NCBI RefSeq assembly: GCF_003095655.1
Contig: NZ_CP029151.1
Span: forward strand, 1,859,001 to 1,923,000
From: Dokdonia sp. Dokd-P16
Lineage (GTDB): Bacteria > Bacteroidota > Bacteroidia > Flavobacteriales > Flavobacteriaceae
Direction of reading: 5' to 3'
Length of the DNA: 64,000 nt
Below are positions 1,096 to 61,398 of this stretch, piece after piece. Made by a program: the position numbers and the translations under genes. Under the pieces are notes generated by a model that did not search any database, was not told the DNA's origin, and saw only the letters and a list, made by a program, of their open reading frames with translations. How positions within the stretch are numbered: the first letter of the stretch is position 1; each line of letters opens with the position of its first letter.

Positions 1096-1521
1096 ATGCT
1101 TTCGCGAAAAACTAAATACGGCATTAAAGCCCTAACGTACATTGCCCGTGAACAACGGGAAGATGCTTTGGTGCAAATAGGCACCATTGCTGAAAGTGAA
1201 AATATCTCTCAAAAATTCCTTGAAAGCATTATGCTTACGCTTAAAAAAGCGGGCTTCGTATCCAGCCGAAAAGGTAAAGGTGGTGGATACCAACTGCGTC
1301 GTGAGCCTAAGGATATCAAAATGGTTGAGGTCATGAGAGTACTTGAAGGACCCGTTGCCATGCTGCCATGTGTATCTCTCAATTATTATGAACGTTGTGC
1401 AGATTGTAAAGATGAGGATGCATGTTCTGTTCATAGTTTAATGATACAAATAAGAGATAACACACTTCTTGTGTTAGAGAAGAATACGCTTGCAGACCTT
1501 GTAGCGGCTGCTAGTTCGTAG
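1096..1521 (+). CDS. Rrf2-family transcriptional regulator
   Basis: A 141-residue Rrf2/IscR/CymR-type repressor. The N-terminus LSRKTKYGIKALTYIA and the winged helix (ISQKFLESIMLTLKKAGFV, SSRKGKGGGYQL) are typical. Cysteines at about 92, 101, 104 and 110 (CVSLNYYERCADCKDEDAC) sit where Rrf2 members bind an Fe-S cluster, so iron-sulfur or redox sensing is plausible. It lies just upstream of, and codirectional with, the sulfate-assimilation operon, so control of sulfur assimilation is the natural inference. TACTTTCG, one mismatch from a -7 box, is 9 nt before the ATG, so the transcript may have almost no leader. A TTTCGCGAAA copy at 1100-1109 encodes the LSRK of the N-terminus. Confidence 0.88.
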   Translation: MLSRKTKYGIKALTYIAREQREDALVQIGTIAESENISQKFLESIMLTLKKAGFVSSRKGKGGGYQLRREPKDIKMVEVMRVLEGPVAMLPCVSLNYYERCADCKDEDACSVHSLMIQIRDNTLLVLEKNTLADLVAAASS

Positions 1522-1561
1522 TACTATTCACTCGCTTTTTTCTTTAAAACAACAATTATTC

Positions 1562-1592
1562 TTGTTAACCTAAGTTAATAATTTTACATTTG
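1562..1592 (+). promoter_or_regulatory. promoter of the sulfate-assimilation operon
   Basis: TTG (1562-1564), 20 nt, then TACATTTG (1585-1592) is a near-ideal Bacteroidota sigma-A promoter (TTG, about 20 nt, TAnnTTTG). Its position makes the in-frame TTG at 1590 part of the promoter and not a start codon for the next gene. Confidence 0.7.
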
Positions 1593-1634
1593 CCGATTAA
1601 CCCTAGTAATCCGATAGGAATAAATAATTCTGAA

Positions 1635-1898
1635 ATGATTATCGATTCGCTTGTTTTAAAACAATCAAAAAATACTTCTAAAGAGAAAACTCCTGCTTCG
1701 GCAGAAAAACCTATGCGCAGTATTGTGAAGTCCATAAGCTGGAGAGCAATAGGGACACTTGATACAATCGCTATTTCGTGGTTTGTAACTGGTACGCTAG
1801 CCTTAGCGTTGAGTATAGGGGCAGTAGAATTAGTATCAAAAATGGCGCTCTACTTTTTCCATGAGCGTGTTTGGAATTTAATAAAATGGGGAAAATAA
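1635..1898 (+). CDS. DUF2061 small membrane protein
   Basis: An 87-residue protein with the DUF2061 signature: RSIVKSISWRAIGTLDTIAISWFVTG, a second hydrophobic stretch (LALALSIGAVELVSKMALYFF) and a terminal HERVWNLIKWG. It should have two short membrane helices. I start it at the ATG 1635 because the upstream in-frame TTG at 1590 lies in the promoter. Its stop overlaps the cysH start (TAATG), so the two are probably translationally coupled. DUF2061 proteins commonly accompany cysH in Bacteroidota; their role is unknown, and helping sulfate assimilation at the membrane is only a guess from context. Confidence 0.85.
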   Translation: MIIDSLVLKQSKNTSKEKTPASAEKPMRSIVKSISWRAIGTLDTIAISWFVTGTLALALSIGAVELVSKMALYFFHERVWNLIKWGK

Positions 1899-2521
1899 TG
1901 AAGTTTACTCAAGAGCAAATAACACAATTTAATAGTGATTTAAAATCACAAAGCCCGTCAGATATTGTAAAATGGGCATTAGAACATGCTGAAAAACCTG
2001 TAATAACAACAAATTTCAGGCCTTATGAGGCAGCCATCTTACACGTGGTTTCTCAAGAGTTCGATAAGATTAATGTAGTATGGTGTGATACAGGTTACAA
2101 TACTCCAGAAACCTATAAACATGCAGAAGAGGTTATTAATCAACTAGCACTTTCTATTGACTTATATGTACCACAACAAACCCGTGCTCATCGTGATGTA
2201 GTGATGGGTAATCCTTCGGTTGCAGATGAAAGTCATAAAGAATTTACAGAACAGGTGAAATTAGAGCCTTTCCGTAGAGCTATGGAAGTACATAAGCCAG
2301 ATGTGTGGTTTACTAATTTAAGACAAGGGCAAACGGCACATAGAGATAACCTAGATATTTTAAGTTTAAGTAAAGATGGCGTTCTTAAAGTAAGCCCTTT
2401 TTATTATTGGTCAGATAGTGAGTTAGACAAGTACTTAATAGATCATAAGTTGCCTAATGAACATAGTTATAATGACCCAACAAAAGTATTAGAACATAGA
2501 GAATGTGGTTTACATCTCTAA
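1898..2521 (+). CDS. cysH: phosphoadenylyl-sulfate (PAPS) reductase
   Basis: Reduces activated sulfate to sulfite using thioredoxin-type electrons in the cytoplasm. The 207-residue protein has the PAPS-reductase fold: ITTNFRPYEAAILHVV, VVWCDTGYNTPETY, WFTNLRQGQTAHRDN, and the C-terminal catalytic ECGLH. Only two cysteines are visible (WCDTG and ECGLH). The paired CC motifs that bind a [4Fe-4S] cluster in APS reductases are absent, so PAPS is the predicted substrate. No APS kinase (cysC) gene is present beside it. The start is the ATG overlapping the DUF2061 stop; a nine-residue longer form from an upstream ATG would run into that gene. Confidence 0.88.
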   Translation: MKFTQEQITQFNSDLKSQSPSDIVKWALEHAEKPVITTNFRPYEAAILHVVSQEFDKINVVWCDTGYNTPETYKHAEEVINQLALSIDLYVPQQTRAHRDVVMGNPSVADESHKEFTEQVKLEPFRRAMEVHKPDVWFTNLRQGQTAHRDNLDILSLSKDGVLKVSPFYYWSDSELDKYLIDHKLPNEHSYNDPTKVLEHRECGLHL

Positions 2522-2533
2522 GCAGAGAGATAT

Positions 2534-3433: not shown

Positions 3434-3436
3434 ATT

Positions 3437-4681
3437 ATGGAAGTATTGAAACTGGCAACTGCTGGAAGTGTAGATGATGGAAAGAGTACTTTAATAGGTA
3501 GGTTGTTATACGACACGCAATCACTTACTGATGATAAACTTGAGGCTATAGAAAAAAGCAGTAAAAAGTTAGGGTATGATTACCTAGACTTTTCACTCGC
3601 GACAGATGGATTAGTGGCAGAGCGTGAGCAAGGAATCACGATTGATGTAGCACACATTTATTTTTCGACACCTACTAAAAGTTATATTATAGCAGACAGC
3701 CCTGGGCATGTAGAGTATACTCGTAATATGATTACAGGAGCGTCAAATGCTGCTGTTTCTATTATTCTTATAGATGCTAGAAAAGGCGTTATCGAGCAAA
3801 CATTTAGGCATTTCTTTATTAATGCGCTTTTACAAGTTAAGCACGTGGTAATTGCAGTAAATAAAATGGACTTGGTAGATTATGATCAGTCTGTTTTTGA
3901 TAGTATTAAAAATGACATTGATGCACTTCGAGCAAAGAGTGGTTATAAAGATCAAGAGATAACGTTTATTCCTATAAGTGCACTTACAGGTGATAATGTG
4001 GCTTCCGCTTCCGCGAAAATGGGCTGGTATGAAGGACCATCTATTTTAGGGTATTTAGAAAACGTAACACCAGAAGCAGCTAGCGATACGCCTATGCGTT
4101 TTCCAGTACAATCGGTAATACGACCAAAAACCAATGCATTTCATGATTTTAGAGGGTATGCGGGTAAGGTGTATGGAAGTTCAATAGCAGTAGGAGACGA
4201 GATAACGGTACTGCCTAGTTTGAAATCTTCAAAGGTTCAAGACATATTCAGCTACAAAGATTCTTATAAAGAAGCCCAAGCGGGTAATTCTATAACACTC
4301 ACGCTAGAAGACGATATTAATGTCACTAGAGGTGATGTCATTGTGAAGTCTACCGAGGTGCCTCAACAAACCAAAGAGCTTACAGCAACCGTATGCTGGA
4401 TGGATGACATGGTGCTTACGGCGGGTAAAAAGTACGAGCTACAGCACACAACGCAGCGCATACTTGCAAAGGTGTCTCAAATACAAGAAATCATCCCTAC
4501 AGATTTTTCTACACCAGAAGCTGGCGCAAGTGAAGTAACAATTAATGAAATTGCAACGGTACATTTTAAACTTGCCAAATCACTTTTTTATGATCGTTAT
4601 ACAGATCATAAACAAGGAGGTTCATTTATTATCATAGACCCTATTACAAATACAACAGCTGGAGTAGGGTTTATACAGTAA
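3437..4681 (+). CDS. cysN: sulfate adenylyltransferase subunit 1 (GTPase)
   Basis: Regulatory GTPase of ATP sulfurylase, an EF-Tu relative that couples GTP hydrolysis to APS synthesis. Motifs: P-loop GSVDDGKST, DSPGH (G3), NKMD (G4), then two beta-barrel domains. At 414 residues it lacks the C-terminal APS-kinase domain of CysNC fusions. The segment at 4004-4018 (ASASAK) is encoded by a degenerate copy of the window's TTTCGCGAAA palindrome. A strong hairpin terminator follows, ending the operon. Confidence 0.94.
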   Translation: MEVLKLATAGSVDDGKSTLIGRLLYDTQSLTDDKLEAIEKSSKKLGYDYLDFSLATDGLVAEREQGITIDVAHIYFSTPTKSYIIADSPGHVEYTRNMITGASNAAVSIILIDARKGVIEQTFRHFFINALLQVKHVVIAVNKMDLVDYDQSVFDSIKNDIDALRAKSGYKDQEITFIPISALTGDNVASASAKMGWYEGPSILGYLENVTPEAASDTPMRFPVQSVIRPKTNAFHDFRGYAGKVYGSSIAVGDEITVLPSLKSSKVQDIFSYKDSYKEAQAGNSITLTLEDDINVTRGDVIVKSTEVPQQTKELTATVCWMDDMVLTAGKKYELQHTTQRILAKVSQIQEIIPTDFSTPEAGASEVTINEIATVHFKLAKSLFYDRYTDHKQGGSFIIIDPITNTTAGVGFIQ

Positions 4682-4705
4682 ACCAATCATCATAGTATGT
4701 AAAAA

Positions 4706-4738
4706 ATAAAGCCCATTCTTTTAAAGAATGGGCTTTAT
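4706..4738. terminator. bidirectional terminator between cysN and the P5C dehydrogenase gene
   Basis: A 16-bp perfect inverted repeat (ATAAAGCCCATTCTTT and its complement, one base between arms), A-rich before and T-rich after, lies between convergent genes and can serve both. Confidence 0.85.
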
Positions 4739-4760
4739 CATTAATAATGGTCTTAGTCTA

Positions 4761-6486: not shown

Positions 6487-6508
6487 TTACGCTTTCGCGA
6501 AAGCGTAA
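6487..6508. repeat. TTTCGCGAAA palindrome, full 22-bp form
   Basis: The core (6493-6502) is extended to a perfect 22-bp inverted repeat ending in TTA/TAA. It lies between the divergent P5C dehydrogenase and NRDE genes. Confidence 0.9.
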
Positions 6509-9886: not shown

Positions 9887-9907
9887 TACGCTTTCGCGAA
9901 AGCGTAA
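9887..9907. repeat. TTTCGCGAAA palindrome
   Basis: Core 9892-9901, arms extended to TACGC and GCGTAA, in the 77-bp gap between the T9SS plug gene and DUF3667 (both minus strand). Confidence 0.9.
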
Positions 9908-11190: not shown

Positions 11191-11646
11191 AAAAACATGG
11201 ATGGATACCAAATATAAACAATTTTGATGCCGAGATATTGCGTTAATCAATATGGTGTGGCAAATGATGATGTTTGATAATTACGCTTGCGCGAAAATGT
11301 GATAGCGAGAAGTGAATCTCAAAAATGGAGCATAACTTGAGATTGCGAGGTTTTTGCATTCCTTTTTAAGAATTGTGTCCCTCAATGTGATGTTACTTAA
11401 AAATTAATTTTGTGTAGCCCTAGGCAAATACGCTTAACAAGAATCTTAAAAAGAGATATTTTTTACGGTGAAAACGTTTGAAATATAGTGTTTTGAGAAG
11501 CTTTGTTTAATGAGTCGTGTAAAACATTATTTAGAAGTGTTATAAATAATACTTTCACTTAGTCACACTCGGAAATACGGACGGTATTATGTAAATTTGC
11601 AAACCTCAATTTAAGAGGATTTTAGATAACATAAATCTACTGACAT
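11191..11646. other. intergenic region upstream of nqrA
   Basis: 456 bp with no gene found. It holds a degenerate palindrome copy (CGCTTGCGCGAAAA, 11284-11297), an 8-bp perfect hairpin AATCTCAA/TTGAGATT (11315-11344) followed by a T run at 11351-11355, which could be a weak attenuator, a TAATTTTG box at 11405-11412, and the probable nqr promoter box at 11593. Confidence 0.5.
11593..11600 (+). promoter_or_regulatory. candidate -7 element of the nqr operon
   Basis: TAAATTTG matches TAnnTTTG, 46 nt upstream of the nqrA ATG, which would give a leader of about 40 nt. The -33 TTG is not evident. Confidence 0.5.
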
Positions 11647-15626: not shown

Positions 15627-15648
15627 TCACGCTTTCGCGAAAGCGTAA
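15627..15648. repeat. TTTCGCGAAA palindrome inside the nqr operon
   Basis: Core 15633-15642, arms extended to TCACGC and GCGTAA, filling much of the 50-bp nqrD-nqrE gap. This is the only sizeable gap inside the operon; the other nqr junctions are 3 nt or less. Confidence 0.9.
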
Positions 15649-18205: not shown

Positions 18206-19200
18206 TGAGATTACTTTTACTTTTTCTAGCCATTACTATTCTTTCTTGTAAACAAGATCATGTAGCAGATGAGATTACCATCCAAGGAGATGCATTTGGG
18301 ACTACGTATGCCGTAAAATATTTTGGGTCAGAGCAAGACGCAATTCGTATCAAAAAAGGAATTGATTCTGTTATTTATGCAGTTAATAAATCAATGAGCA
18401 CTTATTTACCCGATAGTGATATCTCTAAGATTAATAGAGGAGATAGTACTATTGTAATAGATGATATGTTTAAGGATGTGTATACGCTTTCGCGAAAGGT
18501 TAATAAAGCCACATCAGGCTATTTTGACCCTACAGTAGGAACATTGCGTAATGCATATGGATTTGGAGACACAGAGGCACTTAAAGTGATTGATAGTACT
18601 GCTCTTGATTCATTAATGAAGTATGTAGGCTGGGATAAGGTAACTCTAAGTGAAGATGATAAAATCCAAAAGATCTATCCAGAGATATATTTCGATTTTA
18701 ATGCCGTGGCAAAAGGTTATGGTGTAGATAGAGTAGCAATTTTTATGAATGAAGAGGGATACCGCAATTTTCTTGTAGATATAGGAGGGGAGATTGTGGC
18801 TTCTGGAATTAATGAAAGAAAACAAGAGTCTTGGATAGTTGGAATAGAAAATCTTGACTCGCCTTTAGAAAAACGTACACATAGCGCATTGGTAGGTCTA
18901 AGAGACAAGGCAATGGCTGGATCTGGTAATTATAGGAAGAATCGTATTGATGAAACTACAGGCGAGCAATACGTTCATACTTTAAATCCACTTACGGGTT
19001 CTGCAGAGCGCAGTGATGTCCTTAGTGCAACCATTATTGCAGTAGATTGCGCTACGGCAGATGCGTGGGCTACTTCGTGTATGGCGATGGGATTAGAACG
19101 CGCTAAGGAAGCTTTAAAAGGTCAAGACGTAGAAGCTTATTTAGTTTATGACGGTGGAGTTTATATGACGGAGGGATTTAATAAGTATATTAAGGATTAA
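18205..19200 (+). CDS. apbE: FAD:protein FMN transferase (lipoprotein)
   Basis: Transfers FMN from FAD to threonines of NqrB and NqrC on the periplasmic side. The 331-residue protein starts with a lipoprotein signal, LLLFLAITILSC (Cys15). ApbE motifs: GTTYAVKYF, MSTYLPDSDISKIN, GYFDPTVGTL, FDFNAVAKGYGVDRVA, DIGGEIVASG, HTLNPLTG and the metal-binding TADAWATSCMAMG. Coupled by TAATG overlap to the upstream small gene. A TTTCGCGAAA copy (18488-18497) encodes the LSRK in VYTLSRKV. Confidence 0.95.
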   Translation: MRLLLLFLAITILSCKQDHVADEITIQGDAFGTTYAVKYFGSEQDAIRIKKGIDSVIYAVNKSMSTYLPDSDISKINRGDSTIVIDDMFKDVYTLSRKVNKATSGYFDPTVGTLRNAYGFGDTEALKVIDSTALDSLMKYVGWDKVTLSEDDKIQKIYPEIYFDFNAVAKGYGVDRVAIFMNEEGYRNFLVDIGGEIVASGINERKQESWIVGIENLDSPLEKRTHSALVGLRDKAMAGSGNYRKNRIDETTGEQYVHTLNPLTGSAERSDVLSATIIAVDCATADAWATSCMAMGLERAKEALKGQDVEAYLVYDGGVYMTEGFNKYIKD

Positions 19201-19211: not shown

Positions 19212-19976
19212 TTACTTATAACAAACTGGTAATATCTCACCTTGAGCTAGTCTAAATCTATTTACTTCTTCTTGAGATAGGGTGTTTGTGTAATCAACTT
19301 CATCTACTTTAAACCCTACGCTTCTTAGTTTGTCAAAATAGTCGCGGCCGTAGACACGAACGTGATCATATTGTCCAAAAATCTTAGCTCTTTCATCACG
19401 ATCTGTGATGGTGTCGTCTTCAAAAGTTGTGGCTCTATCTAGTTCTTGAGGAATTTGTAAAATTGCCATCCCACCTGGTTTTAAGACACGATACAATTCT
19501 TGCATCGCTTTAGTGTCATCTGGGATATGCTCTAATACATGATTGCAGAATATGACATCATAACTGTTTTCGCCAAAAGGCAAATCACATATATCTGCTT
19601 TTACATCTGCTAGCGGAGAGTTTAAATCTGTAGTGGTGTAATCTAGGTGTGCGCTTTCGCGAAAGCGTTTATAAAAAGCTTGCTCTGGAGCAAAATGTAG
19701 CACTCTTCTATGTGAAGTAAAGAAATCTGTTTCCCGCTGTAACCATATCCACAAGAGTCTATGACGTTCGAGTGAGAGCGTAGATGGAGATAGTACATTC
19801 TCTCTTGGCGTACCATAACCGTACGGTAAAAATTTCTTAAATGTTTTTCCGTCAATAGGATCCTCGTAACGGTCACCTTTTAAAAAGGTAGCCATAATAG
19901 GTCTCACCACATAACTAGCCCTTATTAATAAAGGCCGCGGAATAGCATTTAAGAAAAATTTAAAAAGCTTTTTCAC
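19212..19976 (-). CDS. class I SAM-dependent methyltransferase
   Basis: A 254-residue methyltransferase of the Methyltransf_11 type. It shows RVLHFAPEQ (motif I region), DYTTTDLNSPLADVKADICDLPF, and NSYDVIFCNHVLEHIPDD, with ELYRVLKPGGMAILQIP. The substrate cannot be read from sequence. The N-terminal 60 residues contain PRPLLIRASYVVRPIM, possibly membrane-associating. A TTTCGCGAAA copy (19655-19664) encodes FRES within YKRFRESAH. It follows map by 3 nt and ends the hydrolase-map-methyltransferase unit. Confidence 0.85.
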   Translation of the reverse strand: MKKLFKFFLNAIPRPLLIRASYVVRPIMATFLKGDRYEDPIDGKTFKKFLPYGYGTPRENVLSPSTLSLERHRLLWIWLQRETDFFTSHRRVLHFAPEQAFYKRFRESAHLDYTTTDLNSPLADVKADICDLPFGENSYDVIFCNHVLEHIPDDTKAMQELYRVLKPGGMAILQIPQELDRATTFEDDTITDRDERAKIFGQYDHVRVYGRDYFDKLRSVGFKVDEVDYTNTLSQEEVNRFRLAQGEILPVCYK

Positions 19977-23068: not shown

Positions 23069-24583
23069 TTATATTAGTGGTGTACAATCCATAACCGCTG
23101 GTTGATCTACGCCTAGTAGTTTTAAAACTGTAGGTGCAACATCAGATAGAATACCATTGTTGATTTTTTTGATATCCTTATCCACTAGAATTACGGGTAC
23201 TGGGTTCGTTGTGTGAGCCGTATTTGGAGAGCCATCTGGGTTAATCATTACCTCGGCATTTCCATGGTCGGCAATGATAATTACGGTGTAATTGTTTTCT
23301 TCGGCGGTAGTTACGATGTCTTTGACACAGCTGTCTACCGTCTCACAAGCTTTAATCGCTGCCTCCATAACACCTGTATGACCAACCATGTCTGGATTTG
23401 CAAAGTTAAGACAAACAAAATCTACCTCTCCTTTATTTATTTCTGGAACAATTTTATCACGTATCTCAAAGGCGCTCATTTCTGGCTGTAAGTCGTAGGT
23501 GGCAACCTTAGGCGAGGGTGCTAGTAATCTAGACTCTCCGTCAAAAGGTTCTTCTCGACCTCCAGAAAAGAAAAAAGTTACGTGCGGGTACTTCTCAGTC
23601 TCGGCGATACGTATTTGCTTTTTTCCAGCATTAGCAAGTACCTCTCCTAGGGTATTTACTAAGTTATCCTTATCATAGATGACTTTCATTCCTGTGAACG
23701 TATCATCATAATTTGTCATGGTAACGTAGTACAAGTCTAGCTTTTGAGTGTTTTGTTCAGGAAAATCTTTTTGAGATAACATTTCTGTTAGTTCGCGACC
23801 ACGATCTGTTCTAAAGTTAAAGAAGATTACCACATCACCTTCTTGAACGGTTGATATACTCTCGTTATCTTGTGTTACAAAAAGCGGATCAATAAACTCA
23901 TCTGTCTTACCTTCATCGTAGCTATCTTGAATAGACTGTACAACATCTTTAGTAGGTGTTCCAGCACCTTTGGTAATTAGATTGTATGCAAGAGCAACAC
24001 GCTCCCATCGTTTGTCTCTATCCATCGCATAGTAGCGACCTATTACAGATGCTAGTTGTGCGTTGTGCGCTTTCGCGAAAGCAGAAATATCTCCTATAAG
24101 TTCTTTTCCAGATTTTGGATCTACATCACGACCATCTGTAAATGCGTGAATGTAAGATTGAGGAACTCCAGCATTTTCGGCAGCCAGAATAAGTCCTTTT
24201 AAGTGATTGATATGTGAGTGTACACCTCCATCAGAAACGAGACCGAGAAAGTGAACAGATTTATTGCTTTCTTTCGCGAAAGCGAAAGCATCTTTTAAAA
24301 CTTGCTCATCCTTAAGCGTATCATCTTTGAGTGCCTTATTGATTTTAGCAAAATCTTGATACACAATGCGACCAGCACCTAGGTTCATGTGGCCTACTTC
24401 GCTATTACCCATTTGACCTTCTGGGAGGCCTACATTCTCACCATGAGTTAGTAATTGGGCATGTGGGTACTTATTGTAAAGGCTATCTATAAATGGCGTT
24501 TGCGCTTGGTCTACAGCAGATACTTTCTTGTCTGGAGCCATTCCCCATCCATCAAGTATCATGAGTATTGTTTTCTTATTCAT
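23069..24583 (-). CDS. gpmI: 2,3-bisphosphoglycerate-independent phosphoglycerate mutase
   Basis: Interconverts 3- and 2-phosphoglycerate in glycolysis and gluconeogenesis. 504 residues. It shows LMILDGWGM (metal-binding Asp), the nucleophilic serine in GQMGNSEVGHMNLGAGR, HSHINHL, FTDGRDVDPKSG, FFNFRTDRGRE and the C-terminal IIADHGNAE, NTAHTTNPVP. Two TTTCGCGAAA copies lie within the gene (24071-24080 and 24272-24281), both encoding Ala-Phe-Ala-Lys, in the alpha-helical linker parts FAKAHNA and DAFAFAKES. Confidence 0.96.
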   Translation of the reverse strand: MNKKTILMILDGWGMAPDKKVSAVDQAQTPFIDSLYNKYPHAQLLTHGENVGLPEGQMGNSEVGHMNLGAGRIVYQDFAKINKALKDDTLKDEQVLKDAFAFAKESNKSVHFLGLVSDGGVHSHINHLKGLILAAENAGVPQSYIHAFTDGRDVDPKSGKELIGDISAFAKAHNAQLASVIGRYYAMDRDKRWERVALAYNLITKGAGTPTKDVVQSIQDSYDEGKTDEFIDPLFVTQDNESISTVQEGDVVIFFNFRTDRGRELTEMLSQKDFPEQNTQKLDLYYVTMTNYDDTFTGMKVIYDKDNLVNTLGEVLANAGKKQIRIAETEKYPHVTFFFSGGREEPFDGESRLLAPSPKVATYDLQPEMSAFEIRDKIVPEINKGEVDFVCLNFANPDMVGHTGVMEAAIKACETVDSCVKDIVTTAEENNYTVIIIADHGNAEVMINPDGSPNTAHTTNPVPVILVDKDIKKINNGILSDVAPTVLKLLGVDQPAVMDCTPLI

Positions 24584-26740: not shown

Positions 26741-27265
26741 ATGAAGATATTAGCAACAATATTCTTAATTGCCTTTACTATAATGAGCTGTAAGGAGCAG
26801 GAAGGTGCAAATGATAACGCTTTCGCGAAAGCGGAATCTGTAAATACCACGCTACAAGATGAGTATGTGAGTTATGGAGCTGCAATTTCTTCAGAAAATT
26901 CATTAACAAAAAGCGAGGTAGCAGAAAGATATGCAGCACTTGCCGAAGGTGATACTGCAGTTGTGAAATTTGAAGCACCTATAAACGCAGTATGCGCCTC
27001 AAAAGGATGCTGGATGCGCTTAGATATAGCATATGAAGAGCAAGTATTTGTAAAGTTTAAAGATTACGGATTCTTTGTGCCTACGGACACAAAAGAAGGT
27101 AGCGCAATTGTAGAAGGTAAAGCATATCTAGAAGAAGTATCTGTAGGCGAGTTACGTCATATGGCAGAAGATGCTGGGAAATCCAAGGAGGAGATTGCTG
27201 CAATCACAAAGCCAGAACGCGAGTTACGTTTTATGGCAGATGGGGTGTTACTTAAAGCAGAGTAA
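26741..27265 (+). CDS. DUF4920 lipoprotein
   Basis: A 174-residue exported lipoprotein (signal LATIFLIAFTIMSC, Cys17). The DUF4920 domain shows SYGAAISSENSLTKSEVAERYA, then APINAVCASKGCWMRLDI with two conserved cysteines, and VKFKDYGFFVPTD. The CxxxGCW motif suggests metal or thiol chemistry, but no function is established. A TTTCGCGAAA copy (26821-26830) encodes AFAKA right after the lipobox linker, a position where extra sequence would be tolerated. Confidence 0.88.
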   Translation: MKILATIFLIAFTIMSCKEQEGANDNAFAKAESVNTTLQDEYVSYGAAISSENSLTKSEVAERYAALAEGDTAVVKFEAPINAVCASKGCWMRLDIAYEEQVFVKFKDYGFFVPTDTKEGSAIVEGKAYLEEVSVGELRHMAEDAGKSKEEIAAITKPERELRFMADGVLLKAE

Positions 27266-29360: not shown

Positions 29361-30753
29361 AAGTTGACGTGTTTGGATGTAGTAAGCCTAAAAGTGTTTT
29401 GGATTGCCAGGTTTCTCGAGATAATGAAGATTGCCATTGCTCATAGCGATGTTGAATACTTGTACGATTCATAGGTTTTTCTGGGTGCGCTTTCGCGAAA
29501 GCGTATAAAATATCTCCATTGCTACTCCTCATAGAAAGTAAATAGGAAATGTCTGGAGTACCTACTTCGTGCAGATTATACGTAGTAATCGCACGATCCC
29601 AATTAAAACTTGAGATGATAATAAGAAGTATAAAAGCTGCGCGGGTATTTGATTTGAGCATAAATAGAAGATTGTGTTTACGAGCAATTTTTACATAAGT
29701 AGTAACCATTCCAGAAATGCAAAGCGTGAGATAAATAAATACACCTATTCTCTTATAAGTAAGTCCAAAACCACTGCTGTACATATAATTCTTATAAGCA
29801 GTAAGTAATATAATCACGATGTTAAGCGCAATCCATACATAGGTAAAATGCCTTAGTGTCTCACTTTTTTTGTAAAAATTGAGTTCACCTCTAAAGAGAA
29901 TTAATATAGTAGTAATCGCAATAATAATGGAAGTAACAAGTGCACTCACGCCATCGTGTACCGTGGTAGAAAGTGTCGCTGCATCTTCAAGTGGGTCATG
30001 TAATACGTACCAGATGTCTGTAATTATAAACAATACTATAAGCGCATTGAGTGCTCCTAATAGAATGGTGCCGAGTAGCTGTTCTCTATGAAGGCTCGTA
30101 GCTTTAATGTCAGATATAGGTTGTTCAGAGAGGGTAGTAGAAGCATCGCGATCTATAGAAGTAATGATATCTAGCTCTGCTTTTGAGGTTAGATTTAGAA
30201 TTAAATAATATCCCATAGCTGCAGTAAGTATCCAATTAAAATTTACGAAATCAAGATTAATAGCCGCAATCCATTCACCCAGAATAGGATTTGCTTTACC
30301 ATAGAGCGTAGCAAAAACCACCACCAGCGTAGTAACAACAGCTATGGTAAGGATGATAAATTTATAATTGTGATTACTTTTTCCCTTAGGGATGTCTTTA
30401 TTTGGATTCATCATACTATGTAAAGCACCTAGTAAGGATTGATATAGTCCGTTGAGCCACTGTATATATACTGCGTTTTTAATTCCCGAGATACTACCTG
30501 CAAATACAATAAAAGCCAAAATGCAAGTGGTGATCGCTAGCAAACTATTTACTGTAAATACAAATACGGCACTCAATAGATAGAGCCCTGCGGCAAGGAG
30601 AAATGATTTGTTGAACTTGGTTTCCGAACGAATGATAAGAACCGCTACTACAGTAATTATTGCAAATAATAGCATGTTGAGGCCAAGGCTTTGACCGTAG
30701 AATAGAAGACTAAAAAGGATAGCGCCTAGACATCTTATTATTGAAGTTTTCAT
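29329..30753 (-). CDS. DUF4173 membrane protein
   Basis: A 474-residue protein with about twelve helices and a short soluble C-terminus that contains PDISYLLSMRSSNGDILYAF. It fits the DUF4173 family in length and in WIALNIVIILLTAYKNYMY and YKRIGVFIYLTLC blocks. Function unknown. A TTTCGCGAAA copy (29491-29500) encodes AFAKA in YAFAKAHPEK. It overlaps the upstream Coq4-like gene by 4 nt. Confidence 0.7.
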   Translation of the reverse strand: MKTSIIRCLGAILFSLLFYGQSLGLNMLLFAIITVVAVLIIRSETKFNKSFLLAAGLYLLSAVFVFTVNSLLAITTCILAFIVFAGSISGIKNAVYIQWLNGLYQSLLGALHSMMNPNKDIPKGKSNHNYKFIILTIAVVTTLVVVFATLYGKANPILGEWIAAINLDFVNFNWILTAAMGYYLILNLTSKAELDIITSIDRDASTTLSEQPISDIKATSLHREQLLGTILLGALNALIVLFIITDIWYVLHDPLEDAATLSTTVHDGVSALVTSIIIAITTILILFRGELNFYKKSETLRHFTYVWIALNIVIILLTAYKNYMYSSGFGLTYKRIGVFIYLTLCISGMVTTYVKIARKHNLLFMLKSNTRAAFILLIIISSFNWDRAITTYNLHEVGTPDISYLLSMRSSNGDILYAFAKAHPEKPMNRTSIQHRYEQWQSSLSRETWQSKTLLGLLHPNTSTYEITDTRTRY

Positions 30754-31602: not shown

Positions 31603-31618
31603 TTACGCTTTCGCGAAA
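31603..31618. repeat. TTTCGCGAAA palindrome, half extended
   Basis: Core 31609-31618 with a left arm TTACGC but no right arm (continues AAT), in the 59-bp gap between the 31622 gene and the regulator. Confidence 0.85.
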
Positions 31619-31621: not shown

Positions 31622-32272
31622 CTAGTGACTTCTATCATATTTATTATACATGATTACTCCATAGATGATATGAAATACTCCAAAGCCTAATGCCCAAAAA
31701 TACAATCCGTATCCTATAAATTGAGTAGCAATAAGGCCAATAATAATATTTGCAAGTCCTAGGTATTTGATATCTCCTAGTGTGTATTTACTTGCGTTTA
31801 CTAAGGCAAGCCCGTAAAATATAAGTGTTGCTGGAGCAATAAGACCTATTATACCATATTGTATAAGTACGATAGAGAAGACTCCTCCCGTAACTAATGG
31901 AATGGCAAAATTTGCAATAAGTCGTTTTGACGAAGTGTCCCAAATGGACTCTTTGTTTCTAGCTGCTTTCTTGTAAGTTAAAATAATACCAGTTCCTATA
32001 GCAAGAAGTAGTGTGACTAGAAATAGTATAATTAAGTTTCCTGCAAGCTCTGCTGTTGCAAAAATTCTTAAAATGAGATTTAAAAAATCTTCTCTACTTG
32101 AAGCAAATAATTGAATATGCCCTTGAATTAAATAATGTGCAACAACGGCAGCTATAAGAGCATACACTCCAGCAAGTATACCAGATAATCCACTTAATGA
32201 CATAAAACGTGAAGATTTGCTCATCATCGTTTTGATGCTTGCAATGTCTTCTAGATATTTTGATGACTCCAT
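31622..32272 (-). CDS. membrane protein, first gene of the regulated operon
   Basis: A 216-residue protein with six predicted helices, beginning SKYLEDIASIKTMMSKSSRFMSLSGLSGILAGVYALIAA (two blocks). This N-terminus and the pairing with a small winged-helix gene recur in Flavobacteriia, from memory, but I know no function. Operator copy B overlaps its probable promoter (TAACTTTG on the minus strand). Confidence 0.75.
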   Translation of the reverse strand: MESSKYLEDIASIKTMMSKSSRFMSLSGLSGILAGVYALIAAVVAHYLIQGHIQLFASSREDFLNLILRIFATAELAGNLIILFLVTLLLAIGTGIILTYKKAARNKESIWDTSSKRLIANFAIPLVTGGVFSIVLIQYGIIGLIAPATLIFYGLALVNASKYTLGDIKYLGLANIIIGLIATQFIGYGLYFWALGFGVFHIIYGVIMYNKYDRSH

Positions 32273-33541: not shown

Positions 33542-34027
33542 CTAGTTATTCTGTAGCGTTAGTGTTTCAACAAGTCGAACGCCTGTTGCTGTTTTTTCAA
33601 ATAGAAACGATGTACTTCCTCCTTGATAAAATGTAGGATACTTTGCGGTACGTTTACGCTTTCGCGAAAGCATTTCTATCACAAACATATCATTCTCGGT
33701 CTCTGAGACATAAAGCTGGTAGCGAGATCTTCTCTTTTCTCGCACTTTTTTGAAAGCTGGAATCTCAATAGGCTGATATAAATCACCATAAAAATTCTCA
33801 AAATCCTTGTCTGCAAAACGTGTGTCCATACCATCTAGCCAGAAGGCATAAGCTTGGTTTGTAAAACTCACTGTTTGCTTAGAAGCTGCAATTGTAGTGG
33901 CTCCCGTTTGTTTAAACTCTGGAGTCTTTTTAATTAATGCTACTGCTTTTTGATATATCTCTGTAGTTTCTTGCGCTTGTAGTCCTAAGCTCAAACACAA
34001 AATGGTGATGAATATTGATAGTCTCAT
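33542..34027 (-). CDS. secreted protein of unknown function
   Basis: A 161-residue protein with a clear signal peptide (MRLSIFITILCLSLGLQAQ); I start there, not at the longer frame that reads into the symporter gene. The mature part contains YAFWLDGMDTRF and REKRRSRYQLYVSETENDMFVIEMLSRKRKR. A TTTCGCGAAA copy (33660-33669) encodes LSRK in this last block. No family recognised. Start overlaps the symporter stop (TAATG). Confidence 0.75.
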   Translation of the reverse strand: MRLSIFITILCLSLGLQAQETTEIYQKAVALIKKTPEFKQTGATTIAASKQTVSFTNQAYAFWLDGMDTRFADKDFENFYGDLYQPIEIPAFKKVREKRRSRYQLYVSETENDMFVIEMLSRKRKRTAKYPTFYQGGSTSFLFEKTATGVRLVETLTLQNN

Positions 34028-35983: not shown

Positions 35984-36003
35984 TGCTTTTGCGAAAGCGT
36001 AAA
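35984..36003. repeat. degenerate TTTCGCGAAA palindrome
   Basis: GCTTTTGCGAAAGCGTAA: one core mismatch (T for C) with a full right arm, upstream of the DUF1801 gene. Confidence 0.6.
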
Positions 36004-37910: not shown

Positions 37911-37930
37911 TACGCTTTCGCGAAAGCGTA
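37911..37930. repeat. TTTCGCGAAA palindrome
   Basis: Perfect 20-bp TACGCTTTCGCGAAAGCGTA, 11 bp past the stop of the 37941 gene (minus strand) in the gap before the kinase. Confidence 0.9.
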
Positions 37931-38677: not shown

Positions 38678-38698
38678 TTACGCTTTCGCGAAAGCGTA
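38678..38698. repeat. TTTCGCGAAA palindrome
   Basis: Core 38684-38693, left arm TTACGC, right arm GCGTAC, in the gap between the 37941 gene and the 43-residue gene. Confidence 0.9.
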
Positions 38699-42229: not shown

Positions 42230-42579
42230 TGTTTAATTTGGTTGGTGCATTCTTTTCTAACAGTCTTAAGCCTGTGTTTCACAATCTAATGTCAAGCAAT
42301 ATTTAAAAAGAGAGAACACGCGTTAATAATTTGATTCTAGAAATAGTTTGGATTGTTATTTCATTACCAAAATACAACTTATGATTGTAATTGATACAAT
42401 ATGAAATATATGGAGATGAATAAGCCGATTTTAACTTGAACTTGAACTTGAACTCGAACTAGAAGAAAACAAGCCTCCGTCATTTCGACCTTGTGGAGAA
42501 ATCGCATTCGAGTAAACACGCGCCAATTAAGAAAAGTTGAACTTGAACTTGAGCTTGAACTTGAAGAAAACAAGCCCTC

Positions 42580-42679
42580 GTCATTTCGACCCTGTGGAGA
42601 AATCACATATGAGTAAGCAGGTCTGAGTGAGCAACCTTCCTGAGCTTGTTTCTGAGATCTCTCCTAACGTCGAGATGAC
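42580..42679. repeat. REP-like inverted repeat 1
   Basis: GTCATTTCGACCCTGTGGAG (42580) faces its imperfect complement GATCTCTCC...GTCGAGATGAC (ends 42679), giving a 24-25-bp imperfect stem around a loop of about 50 nt. This resembles the common Bacteroidota REP-type element. Confidence 0.7.
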
Positions 42680-42951
42680 AAAAGCTGAAAACTAAATCTG
42701 TATCAAAGTCCCCTCCTTCGAAGGAGGGCTAGGGAGGATGTTCCACATGAGTAAGCACGTAGGAGTAAGAACAGTTGGATTTGAGAACTTGAAGCTGAAA
42801 TCGAATTTGAACTTAAACTTGAACAAACCCTAGTCATTTCGACCTTGTGGAGAAATCGCATTCGAGTAAACACGCGAGAGTAAACACGCGCCAATTAAGA
42901 AAAGTTGAAGCTGAACTTGAAGTCGAACCAGAGGCTGAAATCGAAACCCTA

Positions 42952-43063
42952 GTCATTTCGACCCTGTGGAGAAATCACATACGAGTAAACACGCAAGAGT
43001 AAGAACTCCAACAAAACAACTTCCCATGTTAGACCATAAGATCTCTCCTAACGTCAAGATGAC
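42952..43063. repeat. REP-like inverted repeat 2
   Basis: Same architecture as the first: forward arm 42952-42976, reverse arm 43039-43063 (GATCTCTCCTAACGTCAAGATGAC), loop of 62 nt. The loops differ between copies, apart from GAGTAA units. Confidence 0.7.
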
Positions 43064-43293
43064 GAAAGTTAAAATTTAAGCTTTACTCAAGTCCCCTCCT
43101 TCGAAGGAGGGCTAGGGAGGATGTTTCACAAGAGTAAGCAGGCAAGAGTAAGCACAGCCCTATTAGAAATCAAAGCTAGGGAGGATGTTCCACAAGAGTA
43201 AGCACACTCGAGTAAGCATACATAATTGAGGATGTTCCAATAAAAAATCCAACATACCTAAGTACATTGGATTTATAATAGTTAATATATTCA

Positions 43294-43309
43294 AATTTTC
43301 GCGAAAGCG
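43294..43309. repeat. TTTCGCGAAA palindrome
   Basis: Core 43297-43306 with flanks AAAT and GCGA, that is, without the usual ACGC left arm; downstream of asnS (minus strand). Confidence 0.85.
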
Positions 43310-43340
43310 AAAAAAAGTATTTAATATTAGCGCATGAGTT

Positions 43341-43355
43341 CCCTCCTTTGGAGGG
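43341..43355 (-). repeat. GGAGGG palindrome at the 3' end of asnS
   Basis: CCCTCCTTTGGAGGG followed by CTAGGGAGGAT, a third copy of the element seen at 42711 and 43094. It ends 10 nt past the asnS stop and could act as its terminator hairpin. Confidence 0.6.
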
Positions 43356-43365
43356 CTAGGGAGGA

Positions 43366-44808
43366 TTAAAACTCCGCGTGACCAGGAAAACGTGGGTAAG
43401 GTATTACGTCACGTATGTTTGTCATTCCCGTTACAAATAGCACAAGGCGCTCAAAACCAAGACCAAAACCACTATGTGTACATGTTCCAAACTTGCGAGT
43501 ATCTAGATACCAAGAAAGCTCTTCCTCAGAGATATCTAATGCAGCCATTTTTTCTTTAAGAACATCTAGACGCTCCTCACGCTGTGATCCTCCTACCATC
43601 TCACCAATTCCAGGAAAAAGTACATCCATCGCGCGTACGGTCTTACCATCTTCGTTAAGACGCATGTAAAATGCCTTGATGTTTGCTGGGTAATCAAATA
43701 AGATTACTGGGCAGTTAAAGTGCTTTTCTACAAGGTAACGCTCATGCTCAGACTGTAAATCTGCTCCCCATTCATTAATTGGGTATTTGAACTTTTTCTT
43801 CTTGTTAGGCTTACTATTACGTAAGATGTCAATCGCCTCCGTGTAGCTTACACGCTTAAAGTTATTGTCTACTATAAAGCTTAGTTTTTCACGCAGTGGC
43901 ATAGGCGCACGATCTGCTTCTGGCTTGCTCTTGTCTTCTTGAATTAATCTATTTTCTAGAAACTCAAGATCATCTTGACAGTTTTCTAGTGCGTAGTTAA
44001 TTACGTATTTGATAAAATCTTCGGCAAGATCCATGTTTCCATCTAGATCACAAAAAGCCATCTCTGGTTCTACCATCCAGAACTCTGCAAGGTGGCGAGA
44101 AGTGTTACTATTTTCTGCTCTAAAGGTTGGTCCAAAGGTATAAATCTTTCCAAGTCCTAACGCATAAGTTTCTCCTTCTAGCTGTCCAGAAACCGTAAGA
44201 TTCGTCTCTTTGCCAAAGAAGTCTTTGCTGTAATCAATCTTTCCATCTTCTGTGCGTGGCGGATTTTCTGGGTCAAGTGCGCTTACGCGAAACATCTCAC
44301 CAGCTCCCTCTGCATCACTACCGGTAATGATAGGCGTATGTGCATGGAAGTAGCCATTTTTATTAAAATACTCATGTATGGCAAACGATAACTTTGAGCG
44401 TAAACGCATTACAGCGCCAAAGGTATTGGTGCGAACTCTTAAGTGTGCCTGCTCACGTAATTTTTCTAGTGAGTGACGCTTAGGAGAGAGTATTGTGTTT
44501 TTTAATTCTTGAGGATCTGCATCTCCCTCAATCTGAATATCTTTTACTTTGATCTCTATGCGTTGCCCTCCACCTTGACTTTCTTCTAAGGTTCCTTTTA
44601 TGGCAACGGCAGCACCTGTCGTGATACGCTTTAAAAGTGCTTCGTCTGTATTTTCAAAATCGACTACACACTGAAGGTTATTAATAGTAGAACCATCATT
44701 AAGTGCGATAAACTGGTTTCCGCGGAAGGATCTTACCCATCCTTTTACCGTAAATTCTTGATGAATTTTGTCACTTTCGAGTAGCGCTATAATAGGCGTA
44801 TGTGTCAT
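43366..44808 (-). CDS. asnS: asparaginyl-tRNA synthetase
   Basis: Class IIb synthetase (480 residues) charging tRNA-Asn. N-terminal OB fold: FTVKGWVRSFRGNQFIALNDGS. Catalytic core: FGAVMRLRSKLSFAIHEYF, motif 2 FGPTFRAENSNTSRHLAEFWMVEPEMAF (two blocks), FDYPANIKAFYMR and motif 3 GFGLGFERLVLFVTGMTNIRDVIPYPRFPG (in two parts). The motif-3 proximal GTCTHSGFGLGFER is as in AsnRS. A -7 box lies 34 nt upstream. Confidence 0.96.
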   Translation of the reverse strand: MTHTPIIALLESDKIHQEFTVKGWVRSFRGNQFIALNDGSTINNLQCVVDFENTDEALLKRITTGAAVAIKGTLEESQGGGQRIEIKVKDIQIEGDADPQELKNTILSPKRHSLEKLREQAHLRVRTNTFGAVMRLRSKLSFAIHEYFNKNGYFHAHTPIITGSDAEGAGEMFRVSALDPENPPRTEDGKIDYSKDFFGKETNLTVSGQLEGETYALGLGKIYTFGPTFRAENSNTSRHLAEFWMVEPEMAFCDLDGNMDLAEDFIKYVINYALENCQDDLEFLENRLIQEDKSKPEADRAPMPLREKLSFIVDNNFKRVSYTEAIDILRNSKPNKKKKFKYPINEWGADLQSEHERYLVEKHFNCPVILFDYPANIKAFYMRLNEDGKTVRAMDVLFPGIGEMVGGSQREERLDVLKEKMAALDISEEELSWYLDTRKFGTCTHSGFGLGFERLVLFVTGMTNIRDVIPYPRFPGHAEF

Positions 44809-44960: not shown

Positions 44961-44982
44961 TTCACGCTTTCGCGAAAGCGTA
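44961..44982. repeat. TTTCGCGAAA palindrome
   Basis: Core 44968-44977, arms TTCACGC and GCGTA; immediately after the stop of the 44986 gene (minus strand). Confidence 0.9.
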
Positions 44983-44985: not shown

Positions 44986-45531
44986 CTACGGGTTCAAAAA
45001 CTGCCCATTCCATGCACCATCTTCCTGATTAAATGCTACTCTTATATGGTTAGGCCTCTTAAGCTGAAGGAACTCTAAATGTGTAGGTGCAATCTCAATA
45101 ATAGTAAAATAGTGTGTGCTCTCAAGGTAGTCTACCGCATCTGGATTTGAAATCTCTGCGCCAGGAGCATCAGCAGTGGTGTAATCTTTTTTTGATGAAG
45201 GTTGCACGCCGCTGTAGTAGCGTTGCAGCTCTACAGGATCTGTAATGATGGAAGCGTTTCCTGTAACTTTAATCTGCAGCAATTTTTTAGGATGGTAGAA
45301 GAGCAAGCTAGTAACATCATTTTGGAGTAACTGAGCTATTTTATTTGATCTACTGTCAGTATAAATTCTCAGTTTAAAATCCTCTGTAACTTGTCTTAGT
45401 ACTACAGTTCTTAGTGCGGGAACTCCAGAAGCATCTACGGTGCCCATAGTGGTGTACCTAAACGGGTGTCCCTTTTTGTTGACGCCAAGTTGTAACTCTT
45501 CTTGTGCTTCCTTAAAATACTGATCTGTCAT
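44986..45531 (-). CDS. pyridoxamine 5'-phosphate oxidase-like flavoprotein
   Basis: A 181-residue FMN-binding split-barrel protein. It has TTMGTVDASGVPALRTVVLRQV, YTDSRSNKIAQLLQNDVTSLLFYHPKKLLQIKVTGNASI (two blocks), and THLEFLQL near the C-terminus, as in the PNPOx-like (Alr4036) group. It lacks the C-terminal PNPOx dimerisation domain, so it is not clearly PdxH. Substrate unknown. It lies 47 nt after the RND exporter gene. Confidence 0.8.
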   Translation of the reverse strand: MTDQYFKEAQEELQLGVNKKGHPFRYTTMGTVDASGVPALRTVVLRQVTEDFKLRIYTDSRSNKIAQLLQNDVTSLLFYHPKKLLQIKVTGNASIITDPVELQRYYSGVQPSSKKDYTTADAPGAEISNPDAVDYLESTHYFTIIEIAPTHLEFLQLKRPNHIRVAFNQEDGAWNGQFLNP

Positions 45532-48058: not shown

Positions 48059-48078
48059 GCGCTTTCGCGAAAGCGTAA
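48059..48078. repeat. TTTCGCGAAA palindrome
   Basis: Core 48063-48072, left arm TGCGC, right arm GCGTAA, in the 139-bp gap between the DUF5686 gene and the exporter. Confidence 0.9.
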
Positions 48079-51692: not shown

Positions 51693-51713
51693 TTTCACGC
51701 TTTCGCGAAAGCG
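51693..51713. repeat. TTTCGCGAAA palindrome at the island border
   Basis: Core 51701-51710, left arm TTTCACGC, right arm GCGG; between pyrH and the start of the AT-rich island. Confidence 0.9.
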
Positions 51714-54291: not shown

Positions 54292-54334
54292 TAATTTTGG
54301 GCTCTCTTAAAGTACGCTTTCGCTAAAACAAAAA

Positions 54335-57501: not shown

Positions 57502-57524
57502 TTCACGCTTTCGCGAAAGCGTAA
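57502..57524. repeat. TTTCGCGAAA palindrome
   Basis: Core 57509-57518, arms TTCACGC and GCGTAA, in the divergent gap between rplM and the DUF5916 gene. Confidence 0.9.
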
Positions 57525-57624
57525 CTTTAAAAAAAATGTGTTGATAAAATCTTAAAAGAAGAGAGTTATTGTCACAACCTGAGGTGTTTGAAGTCTTTCT
57601 AGTAAATCAATCAAAACCAAACCA

Positions 57625-60318: not shown

Positions 60319-60439
60319 CTGTCTTTTGTCTGCTTGATAATGCTTTACGTCGAGTTCTTGATTTTTTTAAGTTTAAGAATTTCTTAATTAAAATTTTTAT
60401 GAGCTTGTAAACGTATAGATTAGCATGTAAAATATATTC

Positions 60440-61261
60440 ATGAAATATCCCTTTATAGTTTTTTTACTTTTCAGTTTTTTTGCAAAAATCGGCTATTCTC
60501 AGGTAGGAGTTGGAACAGTATCACCTTATGCTGCTCTAGATATAACAAGTAATAATAGTGGTCTTTTGATTCCTCGAGTAGATTTAAGTTCTATATCAGA
60601 TGTTACAACAGTAATAAATCCTAATGGGCCTACTCTTGTAGAGGGTACGATGGTATATAATACAGGAGCTGGGACATTAACTTCAAAAGGATTTTATTAC
60701 TGGCAAGACGGCCAGTGGAATCAAGTAGCCCAAGCTAATCAAAGTCCAGTGCGTTTCGGTAAAATTCTTATAGATGGCCCTGGAACAATTGATGTAACGG
60801 GAATAGGCTTTGAACCTAGCTCTGTTGAGTTTACAGCAATAAATAGAGTCCAAGGTTTTGATGAAGGTACAGCTAGATCTGGTGCAAATAATTCTAACGA
60901 TATTAGAATGGCTGGCGGAATGACTACGGGTTATGCTATAAATGGCGGTTCTGGTGCGATAGATCAACAAGTGATTTCTAATGCCTTTAGTGGAGCAAGT
61001 ATTAATAATATAGGGACATATGCGTCAGAAGATTATTGTATAGCAGCTTATTTTATAAATAATAATGGATCACCACTTTCTGATAATGGTGCAAGCGGTG
61101 GGACAAGCGGCACTAGCCAAGAAGGCTTTATAAGGGCTTCTCTAGGTAGTTTTGATACAGATGGATTTACACTTAATGTAGATCGTTTTCTCAGTGGACC
61201 AACAGGAGAAACAATTGATAGAACTAATCAGATAGTAGTGATTTATAGAGCTTATCGATAA
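60440..61261 (+). CDS. secreted surface protein with QVGVGT module
   Basis: A 273-residue protein with signal peptide (FIVFLLFSFFAKIGYS) and the N-terminal module shared with the 1-840 protein: QVGVGTVSPYAALDITSNNSGLLIPRVD, then FYYWQDGQWNQV (two quoted parts of about residues 20-95). The C-terminal 170 residues (RFGKILIDGPGTIDVTGIGF, ASEDYCIAAYF, SLGSFDTDGFTLNVD, VVIYRAYR) look like a beta sandwich. No C-terminal T9SS signal is visible. Function unknown; ligand binding at the cell surface is a guess. Confidence 0.7.
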   Translation: MKYPFIVFLLFSFFAKIGYSQVGVGTVSPYAALDITSNNSGLLIPRVDLSSISDVTTVINPNGPTLVEGTMVYNTGAGTLTSKGFYYWQDGQWNQVAQANQSPVRFGKILIDGPGTIDVTGIGFEPSSVEFTAINRVQGFDEGTARSGANNSNDIRMAGGMTTGYAINGGSGAIDQQVISNAFSGASINNIGTYASEDYCIAAYFINNNGSPLSDNGASGGTSGTSQEGFIRASLGSFDTDGFTLNVDRFLSGPTGETIDRTNQIVVIYRAYR

Positions 61262-61332
61262 GTCAAAAGTTTTAATATTATTCGATATTTAAGTTTTGAG
61301 AAATTGAAATTTTGAATATCTAATTTAAAATA

Positions 61333-61370
61333 AAAACCCCATTTTCTTAGTAATAAGAATATGGGGTTTT
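61333..61370. terminator. bidirectional terminator between convergent surface-protein genes
   Basis: AAAACCCCAT/ATGGGGTTTT, 10-bp outer stem, continued by TTCTTA/TAAGAA inside; A run before and T run after. Confidence 0.85.
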
Positions 61371-61376
61371 CTCTAT

Positions 61377-61398
61377 TTACGCTTTCGCGAAAGCGTGA
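61377..61398. repeat. TTTCGCGAAA palindrome
   Basis: Core 61383-61392, arms TTACGC and GCGTGA, touching the stop codon of the LRR protein gene at 61399. Confidence 0.9.

Follow-up and report, generated by a model that had tools for sequence, protein, structure and literature searches.

Why does one short palindrome recur every few kilobases along the chromosome of a marine flavobacterium? We addressed this question in a 64-kb stretch of the genome of Dokdonia sp. Dokd-P16 (G000:C1:1859001-1923000 of a single-contig genome of 3,623,447 bases; hereafter the window), in which the 10-mer TTTCGCGAAA had been singled out as massively over-represented. The answer that we favor, at just short of an even chance, is that the copies are a self-recognition motif resembling a DNA uptake sequence (DUS), built from the word GCTTNCGCGAAA and about 20 bp of biased flank on each side, and mostly present as two interleaved opposite copies. 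In the window, we found 20 exact copies of TTTCGCGAAA, all where the preliminary description had placed them, and in the genome there are 1074, as compared to 10 of the reversed word. The density is approximately 300 per Mb, or about one site per 3.4 kb. The six one-mismatch copies reported before are real (4009, 11287, 17722, 35987, 44283 and 54318) and there are two extra ones at 19568 and 39011; exact and one-mismatch matches in the window number 28, as compared to a mean of 2.36 in shuffles, none of which (of 100) had as many. By type, the copies in the window comprise 15 two-way sites, 5 one-way sites with T, 3 non-palindromic members and at least 3 decayed copies. To count more widely, we used a 784-kb Dokdonia sample composed of 464 kb from this genome (the window plus 20 pieces of 20 kb) and 320 kb from four relatives, which come from the window's locus and hence are partly redundant, with sites shared among relatives. 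This sample contains 249 exact copies, where about 0.8 (Markov order 1-3) or 5.0 (order 4) are expected. The extended form ACGCTTTCGCGAAAGCGT is exact in 30 of the 137 copies from the own-genome part, and CGCTTTCGCGAAAGCG in 68 of them. As with DUS and uptake signal sequences (USS), a single word in the 9-12 bp range is thus over-represented throughout the genome.

The enrichment is bound to a lineage. In the genus, all 18 genomes searched are enriched (481-1195 copies). Among 395 genomes of the family, both those of genus g1, all three of g10 (595, 700 and 648 copies) and the single one of g176 (559) are enriched and the other 389 have 0-37 copies, which confines enrichment in this sample to two genera beyond Dokdonia; 392 genomes from across the phylum, that of the window aside, have 0-29 copies (both samples were limited to genomes at least 85% complete). 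Base composition fails to explain the motif, since the sampled G+C is approximately 0.35 in g10 and 0.46 in g176. The claim of massive over-representation, which would have been lost with a genome-wide count near expectation or enrichment ending at the window, therefore holds. In a tree of Nqr proteins, g176 groups with Dokdonia and Leeuwenhoekiella, and g10 is not safely placed because one of its two genomes in the tree carries a different Nqr set; for the NqrF of the window, the closest named relatives are six Dokdonia loci at 95-98% identity.

Copies also hold their positions, even in relatives at 78-80% identity. Conservation of the 10-mer over aligned places is 20/20, 18/20, 14/16 and 9/11 in the four relatives, as compared to 0.60, 0.40, 0.18 and 0.11 for any aligned 10-mer; for neisserial DUS, the available part of one study gives a mean identity of 97% against approximately 85% for conserved sequence at large (PMC2397512). 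Between genes, the alignment may depend on the motif as its anchor, a problem from which genic copies are free; G001 keeps 7 of 7 of the latter, G005 6 of 7 and G007 4 of 6. Substitution accounts for five places at which the window departs from a copy present in a relative (17 oriented words; two of the five places concern the second reading only), and an indel accounts for one place, with 87 oriented words of the relatives falling outside the aligned pieces. Losses in genes leave the length unchanged (L013, L014), and some gap copies are missing together with adjoining bases (9890 in L013 and L014; 31607 and 37914 in G001); for gap copies, insertion or deletion and substitution are not separable in every case. 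Across genera, same-place copies are found at 2 of 4 aligned places in g176, both in genes, and at the one aligned place in g10, between genes.

We found that the unit in Dokdonia, judging by its sequence variants, is probably the oriented 12-mer GCTTNCGCGAAA and not the palindrome, most sites being two interleaved opposite copies; such a two-way site counts twice when oriented words are counted over both strands. At the 249 sites of the 784-kb sample, a GC arm is present on both sides in 190, on one side in 59 and on neither side in 0. Over both strands, GCTTTCGCGAAA occurs 439 times, and GCTTTCGCG continues into AAA in 439 of 440 occurrences. Single substitutions in the 12-mer are rare except at its fifth base, N, where A is seen 13 times, C 11 times and G 7 times; at other bases the highest count is 9, reached at each of the first two. 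At 11285, N is G in the window and A in two relatives, the remainder of the word being unchanged. When N is not T, the second GC arm is present in 1 copy and absent in 30, and when N is T it is present in 380 and absent in 59 (Fisher p 6e-23, shared ancestry ignored). Two interleaved opposite copies of the 12-mer predict this association, since T at N and the second arm are needed for the opposite reading alone. In 14 of the 18 Dokdonia genomes taken together, the second arm accompanies 199 of 1374 N-not-T copies. One-way, non-palindromic copies are common in the window's genome, which has 109 copies in which N is not T (control 2) and 230 T copies with one arm and no following G (control 1), and the one-mismatch copies at 4009, 11287 and 44283 prove to be such members, GCTT[ACG]CGCGAAA. 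Half-sites alone occur in the sample 18 times for GCGAAAGC (11.0-14.5 expected), 6 times for TCGCGAAA (8-11), 17 times for CGAAAGCG (7-9) and 7 times for GCGAAAGCG (about 2), which beside 249 full sites is weak enrichment at most; TCGCGA outside full sites is mildly enriched (156 vs. about 100). These one-way copies and half-site counts do not bear out the palindrome as the unit. An oriented mixture fit to 136 sites with flanks reached a log-likelihood of –13105, above all 15 shuffles (mean –13127, s.d. 4), and the asymmetry it finds is slight and lies chiefly in the GC arms. The half-site counts led us to consider GCGAAAGC as a very stable mini-hairpin, an idea that we dropped. A hairpin as the required form was rejected as well: one-way and N-not-T copies are conserved across species and pairing does not continue into the flanks; an obligatory hairpin is unlikely.

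Beyond the core, approximately 20 bp on each side are strand-skewed, C-poor on the left and G-poor on the right, in all three genera. On each strand, positions from about –6 to –21 before the core are G/T-rich with a C frequency of 0.04-0.14 per position, as compared to 0.17-0.18 further out, and the other side is the mirror image. The G-over-C skew is 0.48 at –14 to –8, declines to 0.39 (–22 to –14), 0.19 (–28 to –22) and 0.07 (–35 to –28), and is 0.01-0.04 beyond. From this extent, about 52 bp appear to be constrained. The skew is present at both coding and intergenic copies, none of 12 control palindromes has a comparable one, and at –14 to –8 it measures 0.55 in g10 (p 1e-17) and a weaker 0.32 in g176 (p 3e-7). 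Separately, we observed that flank-flank pairing lies below expectation at distances 7, 8, 10 and 14 (59, 55, 50 and 51 of 244, vs. 78, 76, 69 and 73) and exceeds it at distances 13, 20 and 25 from the core.

To place the copies, we used a simple gene caller of our own, which misplaces some starts and scores the copy at 1098 as intergenic. In the own-genome sample, 68 of the 137 copies are intergenic and 69 are in genes, in DNA of which 85% is coding. Gap copies are present whatever the gene orientation, as described before (41 tandem, 14 divergent and 7 convergent among 62 with both neighbours called), and genic copies use all three reading frames, giving AFAK, LSRK and RFRE peptides. Of 55 neighbouring 3' gene ends, 18 have an intergenic copy within 20 bp (background 9%), more than by chance, and of 69 gene starts, 3 have one within 20 bp before them (background 8%). 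The statement that copies are not terminators is supported, and an intrinsic terminator (hairpin plus T-run) is unlikely, because the arms are not followed by a T-run on their 3' side (TTTT in 7 and AAAA in 31 of 134 copies).

Spacing is more even than chance. Of 198 intervals, from the first 100 listed copies in each of two genomes, 16 are below 1 kb, as compared to an expected 48; owing to a few long gaps, the coefficient of variation is reduced only mildly (0.86, P 0.07; 0.83, P 0.03). Among the long motif-free gaps, two contain genes of approximately 4388 and 5053 codons, and another, gene-poor and about 23 kb long, has a G+C of 0.33-0.34 (L301, L302; G000:C1:about 90000-113000) and is possibly acquired DNA. 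We note that the giant genes adjoin (L303, L304; G001:C1:288426-301590 and 305125-320284), with the motif absent inside and present on either side. There is no leading-strand bias among 100 listed copies of the 109 N-not-T copies (54 vs. 46), and the 20 sampled 20-kb stretches have 2-9 copies each with no trend from ori to ter visible by eye, ori and ter being inferred from GC skew.

Copies are also found in phage contigs. In a viral scan, at least 120 stretches matched and loci L144-L243 were examined. From these we picked 17 viral contigs by low G+C or several matches, some of which are one phage, so that they give no rate among phages; 15 of the 17 have at least two copies in the sequence examined, and over 41 distinct sites the flank skew is similar to that of chromosomal copies. 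An 18-base form was found in 3 stretches of the viral collection, and a 33-base query in 2 Mycobacterium prophage records of the phage collection and 0 plasmids. Three related contigs (L268, L270, L271; 63-84% identical over aligned pieces), for which PHROGs clearly identify genes for tail, terminase, portal and protease, share one copy in the portal gene and have two more places in two of the three; a contig that lacks a copy has substitutions at the aligned place. Their distant relatives L265, L266, L267 and L272 have 0 copies in the sequence examined. Contig 3300039191_000362 is a Mu-like temperate phage with a CI-like repressor, a Mu-like protease and an AAA protein with a sub-cut-off MuB match. 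A Mu-like temperate phage contig (L190, L264, L270) carries at one end genes that appear to be of host type (SpoU methylase, histidine kinase), and its related contigs have a G+C of 0.45-0.47, close to that of g176. Phage copies do not count against uptake, since Haemophilus phage HP1 has 17 copies of the 9-base uptake core, as compared to 0.18 expected and 3 of the reversed word.

Taken together, the motif is orientation-neutral, evenly spaced, conserved in place, in excess between genes, lineage-bound and present in temperate phage contigs, and these properties make an uptake sequence the most likely reading and the best fit among the options of the preliminary description. For these bacteria we infer competence, a receptor and uptake bias: a surface DNA receptor of a natural-transformation system would bind the word on free DNA, own-lineage DNA would thereby be imported preferentially, and biased uptake with homologous recombination would create and maintain copies at permissive, evenly spaced places in either orientation, resident temperate phages included. 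The motif resembles DUS (10-12 bp) and USS in word length, in at least about a thousand copies alike in both orientations, in even spacing, in an intergenic excess alongside many coding copies, in positional conservation, in lineage restriction and in copies in a temperate phage (HP1). The sections of PMC1939737 on known uptake sequences describe even spacing (citing Karlin), no orientation bias and a non-coding excess. The motif differs in its phylum, in mostly forming interleaved inverted pairs and in its skewed flanks on both sides. Somewhat more tentatively, this could be the first case in Bacteroidota of a system of DNA uptake sequences, in which a 12-bp oriented word with skewed flanks of about 20 bp, arranged as interleaved pairs, is common to three Flavobacteriaceae genera and Mu-like phages; it would imply a DNA receptor of matching specificity, with a target unlike those of neisserial ComP and of ComN, the Pasteurellaceae candidate receptor named in PMC12616744. 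Searches of open-licence literature, by word and by topic (palindromes and uptake sequences in these bacteria), gave no description of this motif; the accessible text of a motif-discovery paper (PMC5217627) does not name Dokdonia, Nonlabens or Bacteroidetes, and a word search of the main text of the Dokdonia PRO95 genome paper (PMC3587595) did not find 'palindrom' or 'competence'. Within Flavobacteriaceae as its authors place it, Riemerella columbina is described in the available portion of PMC7965970 as naturally competent with a preference for its own DNA, and the frequent words given there are A/T-rich.

Several points weigh against uptake by an oriented word. To our knowledge, no competence is known in Dokdonia or the other two genera, and no search for competence genes or a receptor was made. 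Uptake sequences should avoid newly acquired DNA, and in the window copies are no sparser in the part without alignment to G001 (4 in approximately 14.6 kb) than in the aligned part (16 in 49.4 kb). A strictly oriented unit is at odds with the intergenic one-way copies, of which 22 have T and 1 does not, and with the N-not-T copies in genes, of which 9 are on the same strand and 1 on the opposite strand, a coding-strand excess of the kind expected from a reading-frame effect. It also does not predict that one-way copies have skew on both sides, with nearly symmetric flanks. In g176 and g10, the second arm is kept in 47 of 148 and 74 of 117 N-not-T copies, indicating that some of these are simply decayed palindromes and, for g10, that the oriented-unit logic is clear in Dokdonia only. 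PMC1939737 describes uptake sequences as non-palindromic, with approximately 10% arranged as inverted repeats and with uptake independent of orientation, and PMC2397512 describes DUS as often close inverted repeats that leave transformation unchanged; uptake thus leaves the two-way majority unexplained. The former source also describes uptake sequences as less even than compaction sites should be.

Next after uptake we rank, as unlikely, a lineage-specific protein that organises the chromosome and requires anchors at even spacing, for which the motif would be the binding site; resident phages would keep sites like chromosomal DNA. Even spacing, positional conservation, no visible ori/ter trend, the sharp core, the 52 bp under constraint and the symmetric flanks even at one-way copies are all consistent with such a protein. 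In contrast, one-way copies that break the palindrome are conserved between species, the tie between loss of the second arm and freedom at N is unexpected for a symmetric dimer site, and we judge flank skew without fixed bases to be unusual for a duplex binder. ParB_N proteins number one in each of 11 enriched genomes and one or two in 20 others, and with copy number alike in both a ParB-type binder was set aside.

A Chi-like recombination hotspot comes after that and is doubtful. An AddAB-like helicase-nuclease would recognise the motif, in most cases from either side, and a 5' G/T-rich tract on each strand would serve RecA loading. The motif shares with Chi (RecBCD/AddAB) an oriented word, a frequency of one per few kb, 5' G/T-rich sequence on each strand and copies in phages, and the genome encodes two adjoining PDDEXK_1 proteins of approximately 900 and 1060 aa, a putative AddAB-like pair by PDDEXK_1 matches, size and neighbourhood. 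It differs from Chi in lacking the replication-strand bias expected of Chi (54:46), in being mostly two-way and in length, since Chi words usually have 5-8 bases and twelve is long. PDDEXK_1 proteins are present in 34 of 34 genomes, at least two in 27, enriched or not; RecC family PF04257 was found in 0 of the 34. By identity alone, the AddB-like proteins of g10 and g176 are no closer to Dokdonia (36-40%) than those of other genera (37-44%), and a small set of 17 E. coli Chi sites in one 50-kb stretch does not have the same flank flip. In a g10 genome, the AddB-like and AddA-like genes are on different contigs (L286, L287; G379 C15, C17); in the other two-match genomes examined, the two genes are neighbours.

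An orphan DNA methyltransferase target, as the part of PMC4390886 consulted proposes for cyanobacterial HIP1 (GCGATCGC), is improbable here. The preliminary comparison with HIP1 holds in kind, since both are very abundant, lineage-bound short palindromes in coding and non-coding DNA, and the core contains TCGCGA, which is mildly enriched elsewhere. It fails in density, HIP1-type words reaching about 500-2500 per Mb in that source, and in size, HIP1 having 8 bp and the conserved unit here 12-14 bp plus flanks. Usual methyltransferase sites are far shorter than this.

A tiny mobile palindrome (REP or RAYT type), as once suggested, or a terminator hairpin is most improbable: like REP/BIME elements the motif lies between genes, often 3' of them, and some gap copies are missing with adjoining bases, but it is also in genes in three frames, is conserved in place, is probably not a palindromic unit, has no T-run and has one-way copies conserved without the full palindrome, and for genic copies, which show no REP insertion-type presence or absence, mobility is rejected on positional conservation and on changes without length difference (a coding copy absent at unchanged length in L013 and L014; substitutions at differing aligned places).

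Table 1. Copies of the motif in the window, with their state at the corresponding places in relatives (L, loci; G, genomes).
Position	Strand	Copy	State and relatives
1098..1109	+	one-way, GCTTTCGCGAAA then AA	overlaps start of ORF 1096-1521; identical in G004, one change in G005
4007..4018	+	non-palindromic, GCTTCCGCGAAA	identical word at corresponding place in L127 (G004), L131 (G005)
6491..6504	.	two-way, GCTTTCGCGAAAGC, divergent gap	exact match; aligned to relatives
9890..9903	.	two-way, tandem gap	L013, L014 without copy and adjoining bases; degenerate in L011
11285..11296	+	non-palindromic, GCTTGCGCGAAA	L127 (G004), L131 (G005) read GCTTACGCGAAA: N alone differs
15631..15644	.	two-way, nqrD-nqrE gap	present in G004, G005, G001, G007; interrupted in L013
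17720..17731	+	decayed, GCCTTCGCGAAA	intact in G004, G005, G001
18486..18497	+	one-way, ApbE-family gene	two-way in G004, G005, G001, G007
19653..19666	.	two-way, in gene	absent at unchanged length in L013, L014; one-way in G192
24069..24082	.	two-way, gene with BPG-independent PGAM domain	present in G192 (another genus); absent in G007
24272..24283	-	one-way, same BPG-independent PGAM-domain gene as 24069 site	aligned to relatives
26819..26832	.	two-way, in gene	one change in G007
29489..29502	.	two-way, in gene	one change in G005
31607..31618	+	one-way	adjoins 3' end of ORF 31622-32272; in G001 lost with gap
33658..33671	.	two-way, in gene	exact match; aligned to relatives
35985..35998	.	decayed, GCTTTTGCGAAAGC	intact in G004, G001
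37914..37927	.	two-way, gap	missing in G001
38682..38695	.	two-way, gap	exact match; aligned to relatives
43297..43308	-	one-way, gap	exact match; aligned to relatives
44281..44292	+	non-palindromic, GCTTACGCGAAA	identical word in L125 (G004), L129 (G005), L133 (G001), L138 (G007)
44966..44979	.	two-way	directly past stop codon of ORF 44986-45531
48061..48074	.	two-way, gap	exact match; aligned to relatives
51699..51712	.	two-way, divergent gap	exact match; aligned to relatives
54316..54327	+	decayed, GCTTTCGCTAAA	one-mismatch match
57507..57520	.	two-way, divergent gap	exact match; aligned to relatives
61381..61394	.	two-way, convergent gap	exact match; aligned to relatives

Two other kinds of repeat or insert were seen near these sites. 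At 42479-43370 the window has a cluster of several short repeat families that resemble other REP-type repeats, for example GGTCGAAATGAC, GAGTAAACACGC, CCCTCCTTCGAA and ATCCTCCCTAGC, with four copies each over both strands together. In the nqrD-nqrE gap of L013, from a Dokdonia metagenome-assembled genome, a hairpin-like insert, GAGTTTATCCTGAGCATGCCGAAGGA, is present in the middle of the otherwise conserved copy (approximately 9213), and this word occurs once in the L013 stretch.

If the uptake reading is right, these flavobacteria would exchange DNA in a self-specific manner of which we found no description in open-licence literature, and the motif would offer a way to identify the receptor and to transform these bacteria. 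The motif may also help to assign phages to hosts. If the copies are not uptake sequences, they would still be a strongly selected motif with a defined footprint at about a thousand places per genome.

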